The notes under the pieces are model-generated. The model was not told the DNA's origin, made no database searches, and was given only the letters and a program-made list of their open reading frames with translations. Below, one piece after another: positions 28,546-37,477 of a DNA stretch of 64,000 nt; positions within the stretch are counted from its first letter, which is position 1; each line of letters opens with the position of its first letter. The stretch is from Deltaproteobacteria bacterium HGW-Deltaproteobacteria-13 (GTDB lineage: Bacteria; Desulfobacterota; Syntrophia; Syntrophales; Smithellaceae): NCBI GenBank assembly GCA_002840555.1, contig PHBJ01000012.1:1-64000 (forward strand), read 5' to 3'. The position numbers were made by a program, and so were the translations under genes.

Positions 28546-28667
28546 TTGTTGTTTTTTAGCGGCAAAAAATGTATTTATCTAAAAATGGCATTTTTACCGA
28601 TGCCCTTTTGATTCATTCTTTTGTTGAAGCATTAATTTGCACACATCATAATTGTGGAGGTTTGATT

Positions 28668-28928
28668 ATGTCAGAAAAGAAAATTGGCGAAGTAATGAAG
28701 TTTTTCTCGAAACCTTCCGTCGCCGCGGTAAAAATAACGGAAGGAGAGTTAGCTGTAGGCGACAGCATTAAATTTTCCGGACATACGACTGATTTTACCG
28801 ATGTTATCGAATCCATGGAAGTGGATAATAAATCCGTGCCAAAGGCTGTGGCTGGTGATTTTATCGGTGTAAAAGTTTCCGATCGCGTGCGGCCGGGCGA
28901 TGAAGTGTTCAAAGTTATTCCGGATTAA
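28668..28928 (+). CDS. Small elongation-factor-domain protein (EF-Tu domain 2-like)
   Basis: This 86-residue protein resembles a free-standing EF-Tu/IF2-type beta-barrel: VAAVKITEGELAVGDSIKF, then GVKVSDRVRPGDEVFKV, as in domain 2 of translational GTPases. No G domain is present. Small 'translation elongation factor-like' proteins of this size occur in archaea and deltaproteobacteria; their function is not established. GTGGAGG lies 7 bases before ATG 28668. It follows the ribosomal terminator and precedes phoB, so it probably has its own promoter. The function call is from the fold pattern only. Confidence 0.75.
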   Translation: MSEKKIGEVMKFFSKPSVAAVKITEGELAVGDSIKFSGHTTDFTDVIESMEVDNKSVPKAVAGDFIGVKVSDRVRPGDEVFKVIPD

Positions 28929-29039: not shown

Positions 29040-29744
29040 ATGTTTATGTCTAAAATTCTAATTGTCGACGACGAACGGGATATTGTGGAACTCCTTTCTT
29101 ACAATCTGGAGAAAGAAGGATTTTCTATAGTCAAAGCGTATGATGGCGTTTCTGTCTTCAATGTCATCGCGACGAAAAAACCGGATCTGATGATTCTGGA
29201 TTTGATGTTGCCCGGGATGAACGGACTGGATGTTTGTAAAAAAGTTCGCGCCAATCCGGCGACCGCCGGCTTGCCGGTCATCATGCTTACGGCCAAGGGT
29301 GAAGAATTAGATAAGATTATCGGACTGGAAATAGGCGCCGATGATTACATGACCAAACCTTTCAGCGTAAAAGAATTGATCGCCCGCGTCAGAACAATTC
29401 TAAGACGCTCGCAGGACAAGCCGGAAACGAAATTGACGGAAGCGTTTCATTACAAGGGTCTGGCGATCAATTACGCCTCATGCGCCGTGAAAATTGACAG
29501 TAAGCCGGTTACGCTCAGTCCCATGGAACTGAAGCTCCTTTTCTTCTTATCCCGCAATCCAGGCAGGGTCTATTCGAGAAATCAGCTTCTGGATCATGTT
29601 TGGGGCGATGATACATTTATTACCGACCGCGCCGTGGATGTCCATATCCGCCGCCTGCGCAGCCAGATCGAAAAAGATATGGAAAATCCACGTTATATTT
29701 TAACAATTCGGGGCTTTGGTTACAAATTTGCCGATACAAAATAA
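29040..29744 (+). CDS. phoB: Phosphate regulon response regulator PhoB (OmpR family)
   Basis: PhoB is a two-component response regulator, presumably activating the pst operon and the porin gene under phosphate starvation. The 234 residues have an N-terminal receiver domain (DD near residue 11, phospho-acceptor Asp in LMILDLMLPGMNG, Lys in MTKPFSVKEL) and a C-terminal winged helix (GRVYSRNQLLDHVWG, DVHIRRLRSQIEKD). ATG 29040 has AGGG 5 bases upstream; ATG 29046 is an alternative. Its likely kinase, phoR, lies at the far end of the pst operon. Assignment as PhoB rests on this context. Confidence 0.9.
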   Translation: MFMSKILIVDDERDIVELLSYNLEKEGFSIVKAYDGVSVFNVIATKKPDLMILDLMLPGMNGLDVCKKVRANPATAGLPVIMLTAKGEELDKIIGLEIGADDYMTKPFSVKELIARVRTILRRSQDKPETKLTEAFHYKGLAINYASCAVKIDSKPVTLSPMELKLLFFLSRNPGRVYSRNQLLDHVWGDDTFITDRAVDVHIRRLRSQIEKDMENPRYILTIRGFGYKFADTK

Positions 29745-29783: not shown

Positions 29784-29839
29784 CTGTTCATAAACTTTCT
29801 TCCATCTGTCATCAAACTGTAACATTGACTATCTATAAT
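29784..29839 (+). promoter_or_regulatory. Pho boxes and -10 of the pst operon promoter
   Basis: CTGTCAT (29806-29812, perfect half-site) and CTGTAAC (29817-29823) are spaced 11 bases apart. After exactly 10 bases comes a perfect -10 TATAAT (29834-29839). This is the geometry of PhoB-activated promoters, where the box replaces the -35. A further CTGTTCATAAA at 29784-29794 is in 11-base phase, two units upstream, so up to four tandem 11-mers may bind PhoB. pstS starts 32 bases after the -10. Confidence 0.85.
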
Positions 29840-29871: not shown

Positions 29872-30720
29872 ATGATAAGTATGGTTAAGAAAATAATTTT
29901 CAGCATGGTGTTTGTAGCTTTTACGGCTAGCCTTGCTATAGCCGCCGGGTCCGTCGTTATTAAAGGCTCGACAACCGTTTTGCCCATTGCGCAGGCGACG
30001 CTCGAAGCCTATATGAAAGCAAATAAAGGCGTCCAGATTTCTTTATCCGGCGGAGGTTCCGGGGACGGCATCAAAGCGCTGATCGATAAATCCACGGATA
30101 TCGCCACTTCGTCCAGGGAGATAAAAAGAGAGGAAATCGCATTGGCCGGATCCAAAGGAGTCAAACCTGTTGCGCATGTTATAGCCTATGACGCAATTAT
30201 CCCGGTAGTGAATCCGAAGAACAAAGTCCAGGGTTTATCCACTGATCAGTTAAGCCAGATTTATCAGGGGAAAATTACCAACTGGAAGGAAGTAGGCGGT
30301 GACAATTTAAAAATAGTCGTTATTTCCAGAGATTCCTCTTCAGGCACATTCGAATCGTGGGATCATTTTGTCATGAAAAAATCCAGAGTTGCCGCGACCG
30401 CGCAGATGCTGGCATCCAATGGAGCCATTGTTACGGCGATTGCCAAAAATAAATATGCTATCGGCTATCTCGGTATGGGTTATGTCAATAAGAGCGTTAA
30501 GGGGTTGCAGGTCAATGGTGTTACGGCTTCGGCCCAGACGGCATTATCCAAACAATATCCAATGTCCCGGGAACTTTACATGTACACAAACGGCGAACCG
30601 AAAGGTGAAGTTGCCAAATTTATCGCTTTTATTAAAAGTCCTAAGGGACAAGAAATTGTAAAGAAAGAAGGGTTCGTGCCGCTGACAGCTTTTAAAGAAG
30701 GCAAAAAAGCCGGGAAATAA
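29872..30720 (+). CDS. pstS: Periplasmic phosphate-binding protein PstS
   Basis: PstS captures phosphate for the PstCAB importer. The 282 residues begin with a Sec signal peptide (about residues 1-24, cleavage near AIAAG), without a lipobox cysteine. Phosphate-binding loops are recognisable: GSTTVLPIA, SGGGSGDGIKALIDKSTDIA and ISRDSSSGTFESW. GGGAGGA lies before ATG 29872; ATG 29881 is an alternative. It is the first gene behind the Pho boxes and is followed by a hairpin that may give it higher expression than the rest of the operon. Confidence 0.95.
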   Translation: MISMVKKIIFSMVFVAFTASLAIAAGSVVIKGSTTVLPIAQATLEAYMKANKGVQISLSGGGSGDGIKALIDKSTDIATSSREIKREEIALAGSKGVKPVAHVIAYDAIIPVVNPKNKVQGLSTDQLSQIYQGKITNWKEVGGDNLKIVVISRDSSSGTFESWDHFVMKKSRVAATAQMLASNGAIVTAIAKNKYAIGYLGMGYVNKSVKGLQVNGVTASAQTALSKQYPMSRELYMYTNGEPKGEVAKFIAFIKSPKGQEIVKKEGFVPLTAFKEGKKAGK

Positions 30721-30798: not shown

Positions 30799-31209
30799 AT
30801 GGAAAAGCAAAAAGTTATATTTGTCTGCACGAATAATTCCGTCCGGTCGCAAATGGCCGAAGCGATTTTAAATTATTTTTATGGAGATCGTTATGAAGCC
30901 TTCAGCGCCGGTTCGGCTCCCTCTCAGGTAAACCCGATGACTACGTTAGTTTTGAAAGAAATCGGAATTGATATGAGTCACCATTACTCCAAAGGACTCG
31001 ATTTATACAAAGATGATAAGTTCGATTATGTCATTACGGTCTGTGACCGGGCTAAAGAATCCTGCCCTTATTTTCCCAAGGGCAAAGAACGGCTGCATAA
31101 AAGCTTCAGGGACCCTTCATTGTTGAAAGGATCACCGGAAGATATGATTGAAGGCTTTCGGGAAATTCGTGATGAAATCAAAAAATGGATTGAAAGAAGG
31201 TTTAAATAG
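30799..31209 (+). CDS. arsC: Thioredoxin-type arsenate reductase (LMW phosphatase fold)
   Basis: This 136-residue protein has the CX5R loop (CTNNSVR, Cys10-Arg16) of low-molecular-weight tyrosine phosphatases and the two resolving cysteines Cys82 and Cys89 in VCDRAKESCP. Cys10, Cys82 and Cys89 are exactly the redox triad positions known from the S. aureus pI258 ArsC, which reduces arsenate to arsenite with thioredoxin. The Asp of FRDPSL is the general acid. Its place between pstS and pstC is unusual: arsenate enters through phosphate transporters, so co-expression would counter mistaken uptake. No arsR or arsenite efflux gene is nearby. A phosphatase role cannot be excluded. Confidence 0.82.
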   Translation: MEKQKVIFVCTNNSVRSQMAEAILNYFYGDRYEAFSAGSAPSQVNPMTTLVLKEIGIDMSHHYSKGLDLYKDDKFDYVITVCDRAKESCPYFPKGKERLHKSFRDPSLLKGSPEDMIEGFREIRDEIKKWIERRFK

Positions 31210-31266
31210 AAACAGCGCTTTTCCGGCTAAGCCAAGAGCCGGAATGAGAGAATTGAGAAAAAAATA

Positions 31267-32154
31267 ATGAACAGAAAAATCAAAGAAAATATTATCAAAT
31301 ATATCTTTTTTGCGTTTGCGCTGGTGTCGATTATCGTACTGGGTCTGATTGTTCTTTCTCTTTTTCGCGAAGGAATGCCGATATTCAAATTAGTTTCATT
31401 AAGTGATTTTCTTTTAGGAAAAGACTGGTATCCGACATCCGATCCGGCGTCTTTCGGCATTTTCTCGCTCATCGTGGGATCTGTTATTGTGACTTTCCTA
31501 GCCATATTCATTGCCGTTCCGCTGGGCGTTCTTTCCGCTATCTACATCGCGGAAATTGCACCGGCTTCGATAAAAGAAATATTTAAATCGGTCATTGAGC
31601 TTTTAGCCGGAATACCTTCCGTTGTTTTAGGTTTTTTCGGCATGGTCATTATCGCCCCCTGGATGCAGGAAACTTTTGATCTGCCCACGGGGCTGAATAT
31701 TATCAACGCCTCTGTTATCCTGGCGATCATGGCCATACCGACCATATCCAGCATCTCGGAAGACGCTCTCTACGCCGTTCCTAATGAATTTAAAGAAGCG
31801 TCCTACGCTTTGGGCGCGACCCGATTTGAAACGATTGCTAAAGTGATTGTGCCTTCCGCGCTGTCGGGTATCTCCACGGCGGTTATCCTGGGAATATCAA
31901 GAGCGATTGGTGAGACGATGGTTGTCTTGATGGTGGCGGGCGGCGCCGCGGCCATTCCCGGAAGTATTTTTGATTCGGTCCGGCCGATGCCGGCCAGTAT
32001 TGCCGCGGAAATGGGGGAGGCGCCTTTTGGCGGAGCCCATTATCATTCTTTGTTCGCTATCGGCATCGTTTTATTTTTTCTGACGCTGGCCTTTAATCTG
32101 ATTGCCGATTATCTTTCTCATAAATTTCATCAATCAGGTTCGGCAACACTGTGA
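31267..32154 (+). CDS. pstC: Phosphate ABC transporter permease PstC
   Basis: PstC is one of two membrane subunits of the Pst importer. The 295 residues have about six membrane helices, the first at residues ~13-36. The ABC-contact EAA loop is present as EASYALGATRFETIAKVIVP. LLAGIPSVVLGFFGM and GISRAIGETMVVLMVAGGAA are typical of PstC. It follows arsC by 57 bases and pstA follows after 12 bases. Confidence 0.95.
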   Translation: MNRKIKENIIKYIFFAFALVSIIVLGLIVLSLFREGMPIFKLVSLSDFLLGKDWYPTSDPASFGIFSLIVGSVIVTFLAIFIAVPLGVLSAIYIAEIAPASIKEIFKSVIELLAGIPSVVLGFFGMVIIAPWMQETFDLPTGLNIINASVILAIMAIPTISSISEDALYAVPNEFKEASYALGATRFETIAKVIVPSALSGISTAVILGISRAIGETMVVLMVAGGAAAIPGSIFDSVRPMPASIAAEMGEAPFGGAHYHSLFAIGIVLFFLTLAFNLIADYLSHKFHQSGSATL

Positions 32155-32166
32155 CGGGATTGAAAT

Positions 32167-33045
32167 ATGAATGAATCAATAAACAGTTCCATGAAGTGGC
32201 GATATTTCAAACAAACACTTTTCTTCGGCATTGTGCGATTATCGTTCCTGATTATCGCCCTGGCCCTGGGCGGGCTTTTATTATATATTGTCATTAACGG
32301 GATTGGCGTTATTAACCTTGATTTCATTACCACGATGCCCACGGATTCCATGACGAGGGGCGGGATCATGCCGGCCATCGTGGGCACCATCTATTTAACG
32401 GTTGGGGCGATCTTAATCGGGTTGCCGCTGGGCGTGGCTTCGGCAATATATTTAACGGAATATGCCGTACAAGGCCGGATGATCAGAATTATCAAGATCG
32501 GAATAAATTGTCTGGCGGGAGTACCTTCCGTTGTATTCGGGCTTTTCGGCCTGGGATTATTTGTTGTGATGCTGAAGTTCGGATCGAGCATTCTGGCCGG
32601 TTCACTGACCCTCGGATTTCTCATTCTTCCGACAATTATCGGCGCCGCCGAGGAGGCGCTCAAAGCCGTGCCCCAGACATTCCGCGAGGCATCTTTAGCG
32701 CTGGGTGTCTCCAAGTGGCAGACGATTTTCCGGATTGTTTTACCCAATGCCCTGCCGGGAATTCTGACAGGCTCTATTCTGGGCGTCGGCCGCGCCGCCG
32801 GAGAGACGGCGCCGATCATGTTTACGGCGGCGGCTTTTTTTACGGCAAAATTACCTGAATCCATTTTTGGCGAAGTTATGGCTCTGCCCTATCATATATA
32901 CGTTCTGGCTACGGCGGGCACGCACATTGAGGAAACCAGGCCGATGCAATTTGGAACGGTGCTTGTTCTTATTGCCGTCGTTCTGGGGATCGATCTGCTG
33001 GCCATCATTATCCGCAGCCGTATGAGGAGAAATAAAAGGTGGTAA
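32167..33045 (+). CDS. pstA: Phosphate ABC transporter permease PstA
   Basis: PstA is the second membrane subunit of the Pst importer. The 292 residues have six predicted helices, the [16 protein letters not shown] segment, the EAA loop [21 protein letters not shown] and [19 protein letters not shown]. The C terminus ends in basic residues ([10 protein letters not shown]). The stop codon is two bases before the pstB start, within its ribosome-binding region, suggesting coupled translation. Confidence 0.95.
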
Positions 33046-33047
33046 GT

Positions 33048-33806
33048 ATGGATGCGAACATGATAATCAGTCTGCATAATGTAAATTTTTACTACGGGCC
33101 GTCGCGCGCCCTGAATGACATCTCCATGGATTTTCCCGAAAAGCAGGTGACGGCACTGATCGGACCATCCGGCTGCGGCAAATCCACATTGCTGAGACTG
33201 TTAAATAGGATGAATGATCTTATTATCGGGACCCGGGTGGAGGGGAAAGTCCTTTTTGAAGGGAAAGATATTTATGACGGTCACGTTGATCCGGTGGAAA
33301 TTCGCCGGAAGATCGGTATGGTTTTCCAGAAACCCAACCCTTTCCCGAAAACGATTTATAATAATATCGCTTACGGTCCGAAACTGACCGGCGCGAATGC
33401 CGGCGATCTGGATGCGCTGGTTGAGCAAAGCTTAAAGCAGGCGGTTTTGTGGGATGAAGTGAAAGATGTTTTAAATAAGTCCGCCATGAATCTTTCCGGC
33501 GGCCAGCAGCAGCGGCTTTGTATCGCGAGAGCGCTGGCCATGAAGCCGGATGTCCTGCTCATGGATGAACCGACTTCGGCGCTTGATCCCATTTCGACCG
33601 CGAAAATTGAAGAGTTGATCGAAGAACTGAAAAAGAACTATACTATTATTATTGTAACACATAACATGCAGCAGGCTGCGCGTATTTCCGATTCAACGGC
33701 GTTCTTTTATATAGGGAATTTGATTGAATATAACAAGACGGAGAAAATTTTTACCAATCCGGATGTTAAACAGACGGAAGATTATATCACGGGAAGATTC
33801 GGTTGA
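33048..33806 (+). CDS. pstB: Phosphate ABC transporter ATPase PstB
   Basis: PstB powers phosphate import. From ATG 33048 (AAAGGTGG 5 bases upstream) it has 252 residues. Visible motifs are Walker [13 protein letters not shown]-loop [12 protein letters not shown] signature LSGGQQQR, Walker [14 protein letters not shown] and the switch His in IIVTHNMQQ. An in-frame GTG at 33039 overlaps the pstA end and is less likely. phoU follows after 21 bases. Confidence 0.96.
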
Positions 33807-33827: not shown

Positions 33828-34511
33828 ATGGAAGAGAAAAGACACACCAGTTTGCACTACGAAAAAGAATTACAGGAAATCAAGAATAGCCTGATTTATC
33901 TGGGCGCGCTGACTGAAAAGGCTATTCAGGATGCGATGAAAGCCCTGTCGGAAAGAAATTCCGAAATGGCGAATAAGATTATTAAAGACGATGATGATAT
34001 CGATAAGCTCGACACGGAGTTGGAAGAACGCTGCATTCGCGTTCTGGCGCTGCGCCAGCCGACCGCCATCGACCTGAGGTTTATTACCACGGCGATTAAG
34101 ATCACCGGCCATCTGGAACGAATCGGCGATATGGCGGTGAACATTGCCGAGAAAGCGATCCAGCTGAATCAGGAGCCGCAGCTCAAACCTTATATTGATC
34201 TGCCCCGCATGACGGACCTCGTGACCACCATGATCAAGGATTCCCTGGACAGCTTTATCAACAATGATCTTGAACGCGCGGAAAAAGTCCGGCGAATGGA
34301 AGAGGTGATTGACGACCTCAATGAACAGATTTTTCGCGAGCTTTTAACCTTCATGATGGAAGATTCCAAATCCATTCACCGCGCTCTTTTAATCATGCAG
34401 GTTTCCAAAAACATGGAACGGATTGCGGATCATACCAAGGGCATTGCGGATATGGTAACTTATATGATAACCGGTGAAAACGTTCGACATCAAACCAGGG
34501 AAATCAGTTAG
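33828..34511 (+). CDS. phoU: Phosphate signalling protein PhoU
   Basis: PhoU connects Pst transport activity to the PhoR kinase and limits phosphate uptake. The 227 residues form two three-helix PhoU repeats. Metal-site motifs include DDDIDKLDTELEERCIRVLALRQP and GDMAVNIAEKA in repeat 1, and ERIADHTKGIADMVTYMITG in repeat 2. It lies between pstB and phoR with gaps of 21 and 11 bases, as expected for a single mRNA. Confidence 0.95.
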   Translation: MEEKRHTSLHYEKELQEIKNSLIYLGALTEKAIQDAMKALSERNSEMANKIIKDDDDIDKLDTELEERCIRVLALRQPTAIDLRFITTAIKITGHLERIGDMAVNIAEKAIQLNQEPQLKPYIDLPRMTDLVTTMIKDSLDSFINNDLERAEKVRRMEEVIDDLNEQIFRELLTFMMEDSKSIHRALLIMQVSKNMERIADHTKGIADMVTYMITGENVRHQTREIS

Positions 34512-34522
34512 AGGGAACCGGC

Positions 34523-36268
34523 GTGAAGAGAAATCTTTTTCTGAAAATATTATTCAGCTATCTGATTATTGTCTGCCTGTCTTTTTTTATTTTAGATCTG
34601 TTTGTGCGCGATGAAGTAAAAAACGTTCTTACTGCTAAAATCGAAACGGAATTGTTTTCCTATGCCGGGCTTATCGACCTGAGTTCTCCGGGGAAATCCA
34701 CGGATCGGCTGAAGCAAATTGCCGGGATATCGGCCTCCCGGGTTACCCTGATTGACGCTCGGGGAAAGGTCTTTGCGGATTCGGAAAAAGATGCCGCTCT
34801 TCTGGAAAATCATTTAAACCGGCCGGAAGTACAGGAGGCACGGTTGCGCGGCAGGGGCAAGTCCGTCCGATTCAGCAGTTCGACCGGCATGGATATGCTT
34901 TACGTAGCTGTTGCCGTCAAGGACGGGCCGCAAACCACCGGTTATATCCGGTTGGCGCGTCCTCTGCATGATGTGCAAAGCGCTATTGAAAAAGTCTATC
35001 AGTCTATTTTTCTATCCATGATGATCGTGGCGATTATTTCGCTGGTGATCGCGCTGATCTTCTCTTACCGCCTGTCCGCGCCGATCCGGGCCATGGAAAG
35101 ATTTACCGAAAGGCTGCGGGAGGGAGAGCCGTCCGGGACAATTATTCTGGACACATCGGATGAAACTAAAAAGCTGGCTGATAATATTAACTTTCTTGTT
35201 GATGAACTCAAAAGTAAAATCAGGATTGCCAATGAAGAAAAAAGCAAGCTGATGACGGCCTTTACCAGCATGCATGAAGGTGTTCTGATTATCAATGCGC
35301 AAAACGTCATAGAGTTCGCCAGCCCTGTTCTTGTTCATATGCTGGCTGTTCATTACGATGATGTTAACGGTAAAACACTTATGGAGGCTTTTCGCAGTGT
35401 TGATCTGCAAAAAGCCTTTCTGGAATTTAAGGAAACGCGCATCAATGTGTCCCGCGAAATTATTCTGGATAATATAGAACCGGTTATTTTAAGCGTCAGC
35501 ATTTCCGAAGTTCATGATCATCCTGAAGAAGAAAAAACGATGATCGTGTTTCACGATGTAACACGTCTTAAAAAACTCGAACAGATTCGAGTGGATTTTG
35601 TGGCCAACGTTACTCACGAAATCAGAACGCCGCTGACGGCGATTATCGGATATCTGGAAACAATCAAAGACGGCGCGATTGATAATATCGAGGAGACGAA
35701 AAAATTTATAGATATAATTTTAAGACAAGCCGAAAGACTTCATCGCCTCGTGGAAGATTTGCTGACCATATCCAATATTGAAATGAAGGAAACCAAACTC
35801 AACTTCGAAACGGTTTCCTTGAATACGGCCATCGCTAATGTTATGTCTCTGGTGGAAGGGAAAGCACATTTAAAAAAGATAACGATGAACAGCAGCGTGC
35901 GCGAAAATATTGCGCAGGTAAGAGCGGACAGGGACAAACTCACGCAAATATTTGTAAATATTTTAGACAACGCGATCAAGTTCACTCCGGACGGTGGTCA
36001 TATTTTTATCACGGCGGAGGAAACCGCTGATTACGCCGTTGTATCGGTCACGGATACGGGAATCGGTGTTCACCGGGATGAAATTCAGCGTTTGGGCGAG
36101 CGTTTTTATCGGGTGGACCGGTCGCGTTCTCGCGATTTGGGCGGCACGGGCCTGGGTTTGTCCATTGTAAAGCATCTGATGATGGCGCATGGCGGAAGGA
36201 TGGAGATCGAAAGCCAGTTGGGCCGGGGCACTAAAGTATCATTATTTTTTCCCGTTGTAAAAGGATGA
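34523..36268 (+). CDS. phoR: Phosphate-sensing histidine kinase PhoR
   Basis: PhoR is a membrane sensor kinase, presumed partner of PhoB. The 581 residues begin at GTG 34523. They have two membrane helices (about 7-29 and 160-182) enclosing a periplasmic sensor of roughly 130 residues, then HAMP, PAS (about 245-345), HisKA with phospho-acceptor His365 in VANVTHEIRTPLT, and a HATPase domain (NILDNAIKFTPDGG, DTGIGV, GGTGLGLSIVKHLM). The large extracytoplasmic domain is unlike E. coli PhoR and resembles Gram-positive and deltaproteobacterial PhoR. The kinase is split from phoB by the entire transporter operon. Confidence 0.92.
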   Translation: MKRNLFLKILFSYLIIVCLSFFILDLFVRDEVKNVLTAKIETELFSYAGLIDLSSPGKSTDRLKQIAGISASRVTLIDARGKVFADSEKDAALLENHLNRPEVQEARLRGRGKSVRFSSSTGMDMLYVAVAVKDGPQTTGYIRLARPLHDVQSAIEKVYQSIFLSMMIVAIISLVIALIFSYRLSAPIRAMERFTERLREGEPSGTIILDTSDETKKLADNINFLVDELKSKIRIANEEKSKLMTAFTSMHEGVLIINAQNVIEFASPVLVHMLAVHYDDVNGKTLMEAFRSVDLQKAFLEFKETRINVSREIILDNIEPVILSVSISEVHDHPEEEKTMIVFHDVTRLKKLEQIRVDFVANVTHEIRTPLTAIIGYLETIKDGAIDNIEETKKFIDIILRQAERLHRLVEDLLTISNIEMKETKLNFETVSLNTAIANVMSLVEGKAHLKKITMNSSVRENIAQVRADRDKLTQIFVNILDNAIKFTPDGGHIFITAEETADYAVVSVTDTGIGVHRDEIQRLGERFYRVDRSRSRDLGGTGLGLSIVKHLMMAHGGRMEIESQLGRGTKVSLFFPVVKG

Positions 36269-36309: not shown

Positions 36310-36612
36310 ATGATGAGCAATGAAACTCCCTGGTATTTGAAAAAATCACCTTTGGGGAATGCGTATCAGCATTTTTCCAATGTCGCAAAACAGGAAACTG
36401 TTTTAGATGCAAAAACAAAAGAATTAATCAGGTTAGCCGTCGCCTCCGTTTTCAGGTGTAATCATTGTACGGAGCACCATATTAAAGACGCCCTCGGCGC
36501 CGGCGCGACAAAAGAGGAAATATCGGAAGCTTTGCTTCTTGCTTCGTTGCAGTCAGCGGGGACCCAGCTCAATTGGAGCAAAGAATTATTTGAAAAGTAT
36601 CTTGGAAATTAA
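36310..36612 (+). CDS. Carboxymuconolactone decarboxylase/AhpD-family protein
   Basis: This small all-helical protein of 100 residues has the AhpD redox core: Glu38, Cys50-x2-Cys53 and His57 in FRCNHCTEHH. AhpD-like members act as peroxidase or disulfide partners; the true substrate is unknown. AAGGAGG lies just before ATGATG (36310/36313). It follows phoR by 41 bases on the same strand and may be the distal end of the Pho transcript. The next gene starts 40 bases later. Confidence 0.85.
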   Translation: MMSNETPWYLKKSPLGNAYQHFSNVAKQETVLDAKTKELIRLAVASVFRCNHCTEHHIKDALGAGATKEEISEALLLASLQSAGTQLNWSKELFEKYLGN

Positions 36613-36652
36613 TTCGGTTGAAATTTCATCAAATAAATGTTTCGATAATCAC

Positions 36653-37477
36653 ATGGAAAGTTTGATAGCCAAAGCAATACAGCTAAAATACCAGCCGGTG
36701 GCGCTGATGTGGTCCGATGAAAAACCGGCGGACGCCATGCAGTTTGCCGAAGGCAAGTGGGGCTGTGTGATGTGGCTGGCGGTTCACGCGGCTAAGGGGA
36801 AAGCAGCAGTCGCTGATAAAAAGACATTCGGTTGTTTCGGCGGCGGCGTGGGGTTGGGTTTCGGTAACCAGTATAAAAATTTCCCCGGCGGCGAGGAAGG
36901 ATTCTGTTACTTTCTTTCCACCGGCAATGCCGACCGCGAAGGCGGAATGGAGATTGCCGAAAAGATTAAACCTTACATGACCAAAGAAAGCTACGATCAT
37001 TTCCTGTATGGCGAGCGCAACATTAAAAGCCCGGAACTCGTTGAAGAATTTGTCAAGGCGCTGCCGCTCACGGAGATTCCTGATCAATATGTTGTTTTCC
37101 GGCCGCTGTCGGATGTTGATCCCATCAAAGCAAAACCGCAGACGATAATATTTTTCGTCAATCCCGATCAACTCTCCGCCCTGACGCTGCTGGCCAATTA
37201 CGAACGTGTCGATAATGAAAATGTGATTATTCCCTATGCCGCCGGCTGCCAGACCATCGGCATTTATCCATACCGTGAGGCAACGTCAGCCAAACCGCGC
37301 GCCGTGGTGGGTCTGACCGATCTTTCCGCCCGCGTTTACGTTCGCAAACAGCTGGGCGATTCAAATTTTATGACCTTTGCCGTTCCTTTCGCTCTCTTCG
37401 AAGAAATGGAACAAAACGTTCCCGGTTCTTTTCTGGAGCGTCATACCTGGCAGAGTTTGCTTTCCGAAAAGAGTTAG
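36653..37477 (+). CDS. DUF169 family protein
   Basis: This 274-residue protein resembles the DUF169 (ArCR) family of anaerobes and archaea. Visible features are QPVALMWSDEKP near the N terminus, KWGCVMWLAVHAAKGKAAVA, a cysteine/glycine motif FGCFGGGVGLGFG, then FVNPDQLSALTLLANY and AAGCQTIGIYPY. The conserved cysteines hint at metal or redox binding, but no activity is established. ATG 36653 is chosen because upstream in-frame codons overlap the AhpD-like gene; there is no strong ribosome-binding site. Confidence 0.8.
   Translation: MESLIAKAIQLKYQPVALMWSDEKPADAMQFAEGKWGCVMWLAVHAAKGKAAVADKKTFGCFGGGVGLGFGNQYKNFPGGEEGFCYFLSTGNADREGGMEIAEKIKPYMTKESYDHFLYGERNIKSPELVEEFVKALPLTEIPDQYVVFRPLSDVDPIKAKPQTIIFFVNPDQLSALTLLANYERVDNENVIIPYAAGCQTIGIYPYREATSAKPRAVVGLTDLSARVYVRKQLGDSNFMTFAVPFALFEEMEQNVPGSFLERHTWQSLLSEKS

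Follow-up and report, generated by a model that had tools for sequence, protein, structure and literature searches.

A candidate arsenate reductase gene embedded in the phosphate-transport operon of a Smithellaceae bacterium and its relatives

Introduction

Textbook arsenic defence is a response to arsenite through ArsR, and arsenate reductases (ArsC) of the Staphylococcus aureus pI258 and Bacillus subtilis type are usually encoded in arsRBC operons. We take the cysteines of pI258 ArsC to be residues 10, 82 and 89. An arsC gene of Archaeoglobus fulgidus (PDB 1y1l) presumably follows the pstSCAB-phoU genes; its product is a structural match to the protein described here (27% identity), and its position in the operon presumably differs.

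Deinococcus indicus ArsC2 (DiArsC2; PDB 8p5n, 8p6m), the best match in sequence and fold with the same cysteine spacing, uses the catalytic Cys15 together with Cys87 and Cys94; its gene belongs to an arsRBC operon that has regulators of its own (PMC10483234), whereas the gene studied here lies in a pst operon. Arsenic islands hold ars and pst genes close together and link phosphate stress to arsenic genes (Li et al. 2013, PMC3834237). There, ars and pst form operons around arsenite oxidase (aio); here, by contrast, arsC stands alone within a pst operon, and the window (the whole stretch of 64,000 nucleotides that was analysed) contains neither an ars exporter nor an ars regulator. In the Nodularia cluster arsR-sphX-gapdh-MFS-acr3-arsH and the arsenic island of Halomonas GFAJ-1, phosphate-binding or pst genes are placed with an arsenic cluster without arsC, which is the reverse of the present arrangement (PMC3610870, PMC5930303). 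The annotated arsC of GFAJ-1 lies away from its other arsenic genes, and its deletion in a double mutant had no effect (PMC5930303).

Pst systems can be very selective for phosphate, and the arsenic resistance of GFAJ-1 was unchanged by deleting either pst operon (PMC3834237, PMC5930303). A pstC mutant of Lactiplantibacillus plantarum WCFS1 almost lost As(V) uptake, while pstC mutation reduced it in Lpp+ and left it unchanged in Lacticaseibacillus paracasei BL23, so that lactobacilli lend mixed support to As(V) entry through Pst when phosphate is low (PMC11084836). An arsC inside a pst operon is not described in the excerpts of PMC3834237, PMC3610870, PMC6803676, PMC6205960, PMC5930303 and PMC6514093. 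Linkage of arsenic and phosphate genes is already known; the embedded, recurrent and split arrangement was not found described in the open-access literature, and we regard it as a new variant.

Our reading of the window gene, with a probability of roughly 0.7, is that it encodes a putative cytosolic arsenate reductase and has been recruited to the phosphate-starvation (Pho) regulon.

Results

Gene order of the locus

The earlier note had placed arsC between pstS and pstC, and its coordinates, strand, residues and gene order all proved correct. The features of the locus, all on the + strand, are as follows.

29040-29744, +: phoB-like response regulator (TIGR02154, 266.6 bits, under the cut-off of 296.2; best of 99 families)
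29806-29823, +: predicted PHO box CTGTCATCAAACTGTAAC, 66 nt before the pstS start, with 0 mismatches to the consensus pattern
29872-30720, +: pstS, phosphate-binding protein (TIGR02136, 274.1 bits, cut-off 206.6)
30799-31209, +: arsC, thioredoxin-type with the low-molecular-weight (LMW) phosphatase fold, 136 aa, ATG to TAG, with Cys10, Cys82, Cys89 and Asp105
31218-31248, +: predicted stem-loop in the arsC-pstC gap (-14.9 kcal/mol, z -2.4; exact gap z -2.9)
31267-32154, +: pstC permease (TIGR02138, 306.2 bits, cut-off 196.45)
32167-33045, +: pstA permease (TIGR00974, 288.6 bits, above cut-off)
33039-33806, +: pstB ATPase (TIGR00972, 404.6 bits, above cut-off)
33828-34511, +: phoU (TIGR02135, 213 bits, above cut-off)
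34523-36268, +: phoR/pnpS-like sensor kinase (PnpS 370.2 bits, cut-off 400; TIGR02966 phoR 295.5 bits, cut-off 334.2)

The order phoB-like gene, pstS, arsC, pstC, pstA, pstB, phoU, PhoR/PnpS-like kinase leaves arsC 78 nt from pstS and 57 nt from pstC. As in a Pho-regulon operon, the genes are co-directional and closely spaced, with a predicted PHO box upstream. The locus differs from a canonical ars operon, in which arsC stands beside arsR and an exporter; here an Acr3 gene and an ArsR-type gene lie at least 123 kb off. The claim that no ars regulator or efflux gene is nearby accordingly holds within the window, but not for the contig, which carries both.

Putative regulation of the operon

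The predicted PHO box agrees with the consensus at 13 of 14 scored positions, against a shuffled 95% value of 10. Four sites with at most two mismatches, this one included, occur in the 64 kb, where shuffles average 1.2. Upstream sequence was available for 28 family loci; the top-scoring site exceeded its own shuffled 95% value in 26 of them and equalled it in two. This site always lay on the coding strand, and in 25 of the 28 it stood 62-71 nt before pstS. The Acr3 locus gave no PHO-box site above the chance level; the surroundings of the Pit-like gene described below hold two matches, one with a single mismatch, where chance gives a mean of 0.99, and these were set aside. Arsenate reduction is probably controlled by PhoB and efflux by ArsR.

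The pstS-arsC gap has no detectable RNA structure (z 0.15). Among relatives, the arsC-pstC gap is at most 18 nt in five (G007, G015, G013, G006 and G004). In G012 and G016 it measures 315 and 1,629 nt respectively, spacings that do not amount to tight coupling and count against the preferred reading.

Exporter, thioredoxins and other phosphate entry in the genome

The genome comprises 3.51 Mb in 29 contigs and is listed as 100% complete. It yields a single match to the window ArsC and a single protein of the Pfam family LMWPc, and the glutaredoxin-type ArsC (PF03960) has no match in it at E 0.001. Profile searches of the whole genome returned one Acr3, one ArsB and four ArsR-type HTH_5 matches, none of them in the window. 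The exporter that the earlier note proposed to look for elsewhere was therefore found: the one Acr3, at 458.5 bits (cut-off 282.8), lies at position 154667 of the same contig, 123 kb from arsC, and one of the HTH_5 matches, at 161219, belongs to its cluster. The ArsB match, tried as a second exporter, reached 86 bits (G000:C19:103791-105068, L099); with 309.9 bits against CitMHS, a citrate-type transporter is the better reading of this protein.

The Acr3 cluster (L098:5491-13417, - strand; G000:C18) is headed by an ArsR-type gene and has no arsC. The regulator is followed by an MTH895/ArsE thioredoxin-like gene, an ArsP-type permease, a SPASM radical SAM gene, a TauE-like gene, an FmdE-like gene, a thioredoxin-like gene, a CcdA-like gene, Acr3 and a DsbA/VKOR-like gene, where the TauE, FmdE, CcdA and VKOR labels come from sequence reading and not from profile results. 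Only 16 nt separate CcdA from Acr3 in the window's genome, and several relatives (L057, L073 and L084 among them) hold an arsC exactly between these two genes. Since the only ArsC found is in the pst operon and Acr3 is in a separate cluster, reduction and efflux appear to be split. The genome also has three strong thioredoxin genes. It further encodes a Pit-like PHO4 transporter (325.3 bits), and Pst is thus not the sole candidate route of arsenate entry.

Recurrence in the order and beyond

An order-wide search covered 149 genomes, including that of the window; the window ArsC was matched in 94 of them, and neighbourhoods were read at 102 of the 107 listed places (G041, G061, G066, G071 and G145 were left out). 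The order pstS-arsC-pstC occurs in 15 of the 51 genomes of the window's family (Smithellaceae-like), two of these cases being cut by a contig end. The conserved order that the earlier note hoped for among relatives is therefore present, and the insertion is not unique to the window's genome.

Trees were built from 94 of 100 labelled ArsC hits, six with less than 85% query coverage being left out, as were four long-branch rows from the trees for the AU topology test. Thirteen of the 15 gap ArsC sequences form one clade in a quick tree (SH-aLRT 98), apart from the ars-operon ArsC of the family; those of G018 and G030 fall among other ArsC. A single clade for all 15, a set defined by gene order, was rejected (p-AU 0.0037), which indicates that two ArsC lineages fill the same pstS-pstC gap. 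Two genomes (G021, G023) have both a pst arsC and a full-length arsC at an ars location, and a third (G013) has a pst arsC and a partial ars-located one. An ars-located arsC occurs in 3/15 genomes with a pst-located arsC against 20/36 of the rest (Fisher p 0.030), or in 3/13 for the first pst lineage alone (p 0.057), with the reservation that genomes are not independent and one context is unread. Strict complementarity of the two locations was considered and set aside, as these counts amount to a weak tendency only. As a separate observation, one genome (G140, L104:3755-4674) has two tandem arsC genes adjoining pstS.

Linkage was counted when a pst core gene lay within 3 kb of an ArsC hit of at least 60 bits (99 hits in the order set). 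By this rule, 31 of the 99 hits are pst-linked (one a remnant), 28 of them on the same strand. A pst operon with 3-kb flanks takes up about 0.3% of a 3.5-Mb genome by an arithmetic estimate, so the arrangement is beyond chance. Other placements in the order are after phoR, and beside or divergent from pstS. In a collection of bacterial and archaeal genomes, 16 of 87 hits at the best 80 loci were pst-linked, 12 on the same strand; these loci are biased towards the window's ArsC type and overlap the order set (apparently L211 with G006:C254, L268 with G126:C446 and L272 with G130:C63). Other Desulfobacterota show pstB-arsC-phoU (L213, L225), an archaeal bin has arsC after phoU (L231), and arsC lies near pst genes in other phyla as well. 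Two genomes of uncultured delta bins (L230, L233) have pstS-arsC-pstC with a different PstS family; the ArsC of L233 is identical to that of L292, seemingly one record. A further independent filling of the gap by L230 and L233 gained no support, since a tree joining them with the 13 (drawn from 41 genome-collection loci, out of 80, and four from the phylum) beat the free search at p-AU 0.94; the free quick search had missed this better tree, a caution for quick trees generally.

Of the 64 ArsC loci sampled from the phylum beyond the order, two lie directly in pst clusters (one pstS-arsC-pstC, one pstB-arsC-phoU), and in two others a pstS-like gene stands at a distance of 2-3 kb. The sample consisted of 24 non-order loci read with 1.5-kb flanks and 40 taken at every second rank below with 3-kb flanks, and it represents the better-scoring matches among those listed. 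The low count indicates that pst linkage is concentrated in the window's order.

These distributions bear on a reading in which the protein is an arsenate reductase and its place is meaningless: a mobile arsC would have landed in a strongly expressed operon and been kept for general tolerance. The rarity of direct pst linkage outside the order fits such an accident, as does the loss of arsC seen in the family, where 16 of 51 genomes lack a full match. A chance landing accounts poorly, however, for a linkage that is far above chance and turns up in the order repeatedly, at different positions and from different ArsC lineages, for the filling of one gap by two lineages, and for the pst-linked genes of other Desulfobacterota and other phyla. 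We therefore regard it as rather unlikely. Co-option into the Pho regulon remains our preferred reading, and the gene trees and gap contents suggest that the pst-operon arsC of the relatives was gained more than once and also lost.

Identity of the protein

The only Pfam family matched by the window ArsC is LMWPc (70.6 bits, cut-off 23.2), and its best NCBIfam match is TIGR02691, the thioredoxin ArsC equivalog (111.7 bits, positions 1-127 of 129). Since this score is below the cut-off of 174.3, the protein is placed in the wider group only, outside the named equivalog arsC_pI258_fam. The 136-aa reading frame contains Cys10, Cys82 and Cys89, as the earlier note had read it, and these align with the cysteines of pI258 and B. 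subtilis ArsC, with which fold and P-loop are also shared; Lys65 aligns with Asp65 of pI258. The P-loop is of the C-X5-R type (CTNNSVRS, C10-TNNSV-R16-S17). Residues C10, N13, R16, S17, C82 and C89 are invariant in 42/42 aligned sequences, and C10, N13, R16, S17, E21, S36, C82, C89, D105 and P106 in 13/13 gap copies, the window's included.

The nearest solved protein by sequence is DiArsC2 (116.8 bits). A structure model built with 41 relatives has a mean pLDDT of 86.3, lowest (62) in residues 81-90, the block with the redox cysteines. Foldseek ranked DiArsC2 first by E-value (TM 0.90, 43% identity), followed by pI258 and B. subtilis ArsC (0.77-0.84). LMW tyrosine phosphatases among the top 50 matches listed gave TM values of 0.59-0.74, and a number of more distant ArsC fall within the same range.

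An alternative already raised in the earlier note is an LMW protein phosphatase acting in Pho signalling, for example on phosphorylated PhoU, PhoR or a transporter subunit. Its position within a signalling operon would suit this role, and the LMWPc match and overall fold are common to tyrosine and arginine phosphatases. However, the Cys82/Cys89 pair is required for arsenate reduction and not for phosphatase chemistry, and this pair is among the residues invariant in all 42 sequences. In LMW tyrosine phosphatases (LMW-PTPs), the Asp-Pro of the general acid is followed by an aromatic pair; the window protein instead has D105-P106-S107-L108, and the residue after Asp-Pro is Ser in the gap copies, Ala in one of the 13. 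In addition, 13 family pst operons have no arsC and four have a decayed one, with the operon retained, which would be odd for a signalling part. The phosphatase alternative is, on this evidence, quite improbable. The cysteine triad in 42/42 sequences and the arsenate reductases at the top of the structural matches favour an arsenate reductase over a tyrosine phosphatase.

Decay and selection

Four pst operons from the genus of the window (G014, the second copy of G006, G009 and G003) carry decayed arsC remnants, shortened and with stops or a frame change, in the pstS-pstC gap. Among the 13 gap-empty family pst operons read, ten have no arsC trace, in two the gap (49 and 18 nt) is too short to search, and a weak hit in the gap of G017 (opposite strand, E 0.002) was taken as chance. 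G006 has two pst operons (L041, L088) in a 71%-complete assembly that could be mixed; arsC is intact in one of these operons and decayed in the other.

In the 13-copy clade, dN/dS is 0.08-0.25 for the 12 closest pairs, a set without the window's copy. When every pair is taken, that copy included, pN/pS has a median of 0.29 and a maximum of 0.37, synonymous sites being near saturation. The 16 family genomes without a full match comprise 14 with none and two with remnants only, a count that includes some incomplete genomes and covers the window's ArsC type only; it indicates that arsC function is dispensable. Where kept, the gene thus appears to be selected, and it also appears dispensable. Remnants in four operons of its own genus could suggest that the window's copy is a recently arrived or decaying passenger without present function, but this is hardly credible for an intact reading frame with all catalytic residues, in a clade with these substitution ratios, that encodes the sole ArsC found in a genome retaining Acr3.

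Proposed role in phosphate starvation

In the reading that we prefer, low phosphate would lead PhoB to activate the pst operon from the predicted PHO box 5' of pstS, and the transcript would continue through arsC. With such a transcript, the uptake system and the arsenate-removing enzyme would be made together, without an arsenic sensor. Arsenate entering by Pst, or by Pit, would bind the P-loop and be attacked by Cys10; Cys82 and Cys89 would then take over and end as a disulfide, to be reduced by thioredoxin as the presumed donor. Arsenite would exit through Acr3, the putative efflux partner from the separate ArsR-headed cluster, and the expected outcome is protection from arsenate. The cell would probably make its arsenate defence whenever it seeks scarce phosphate.

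The Pst-linked detoxification put forward in the earlier note gains from the ArsC identity, the PHO-box operon, the conservation and the exporter; its view of Pst as the way in needs qualifying, since a Pit-like transporter is encoded as well. Smithellaceae probably live without oxygen, a setting where arsenite dominates, and this counts against the preferred reading, as do the TIGR02691 score under its cut-off, the GFAJ-1 deletion results and the 16 family genomes that lack a full match. To the first reading of the window, the searches add that the arrangement is common to relatives and recurrent, that the exporter lies elsewhere under a different probable control, and that the contents of the gap point to both capture and decay.

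A wider reading, held tentatively and with less than even confidence, is that ArsC belongs to high-affinity phosphate uptake, as a quality-control component that recurs, and is not an arsenic-resistance gene. Made with the transporter under PhoB and without an arsenic sensor, it would clear the arsenate admitted by Pst when phosphate is low, and bacteria, perhaps archaea, would have placed it in pst operons several times and sometimes dropped it from the ars operon. Reduction would then answer to phosphate and efflux to arsenite. Since arsenate competes with phosphate, the threat should peak when phosphate is scarce.

If true, phosphate control of an arsenate reductase would amount to feed-forward defence, with phosphate status giving warning of the danger ahead. 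Natural contrasts exist within the family: its pst operons hold an intact, a decayed or no arsC, and individual genomes carry the gene at the pst location, at the ars location or at both. Surveys that use arsC as a marker of arsenic resistance may, if the reading is true, partly count phosphate-stress genes.

Hairpins and flanking genes

When gap-empty relatives were folded, the pstS-pstC gap gave z values of -2.8 or below in 7 of 11 (L191, L196, L200, L202, L204, L205 and L206). L191 and L204, and none of the others, share a 15-base stretch of one stem without mismatch. Strong pstS-pstC hairpins may set the ratio of pstS to pstCAB. An argument from the hairpin for arsC expression was dropped, as its place relative to arsC is inconsistent.

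Between the ribosomal-protein block and the pho/pst genes, positions 28569-28928 of the window encode a small protein like domain 2 of EF-Tu/EF-G, under the Pfam cut-offs. On the 3' side of the pho/pst block, positions 36310-37477 hold an AhpD-like (CMD) gene and a DUF169 gene, and one or both of these also follow the block in L033, L040, L042, L087 and L089.
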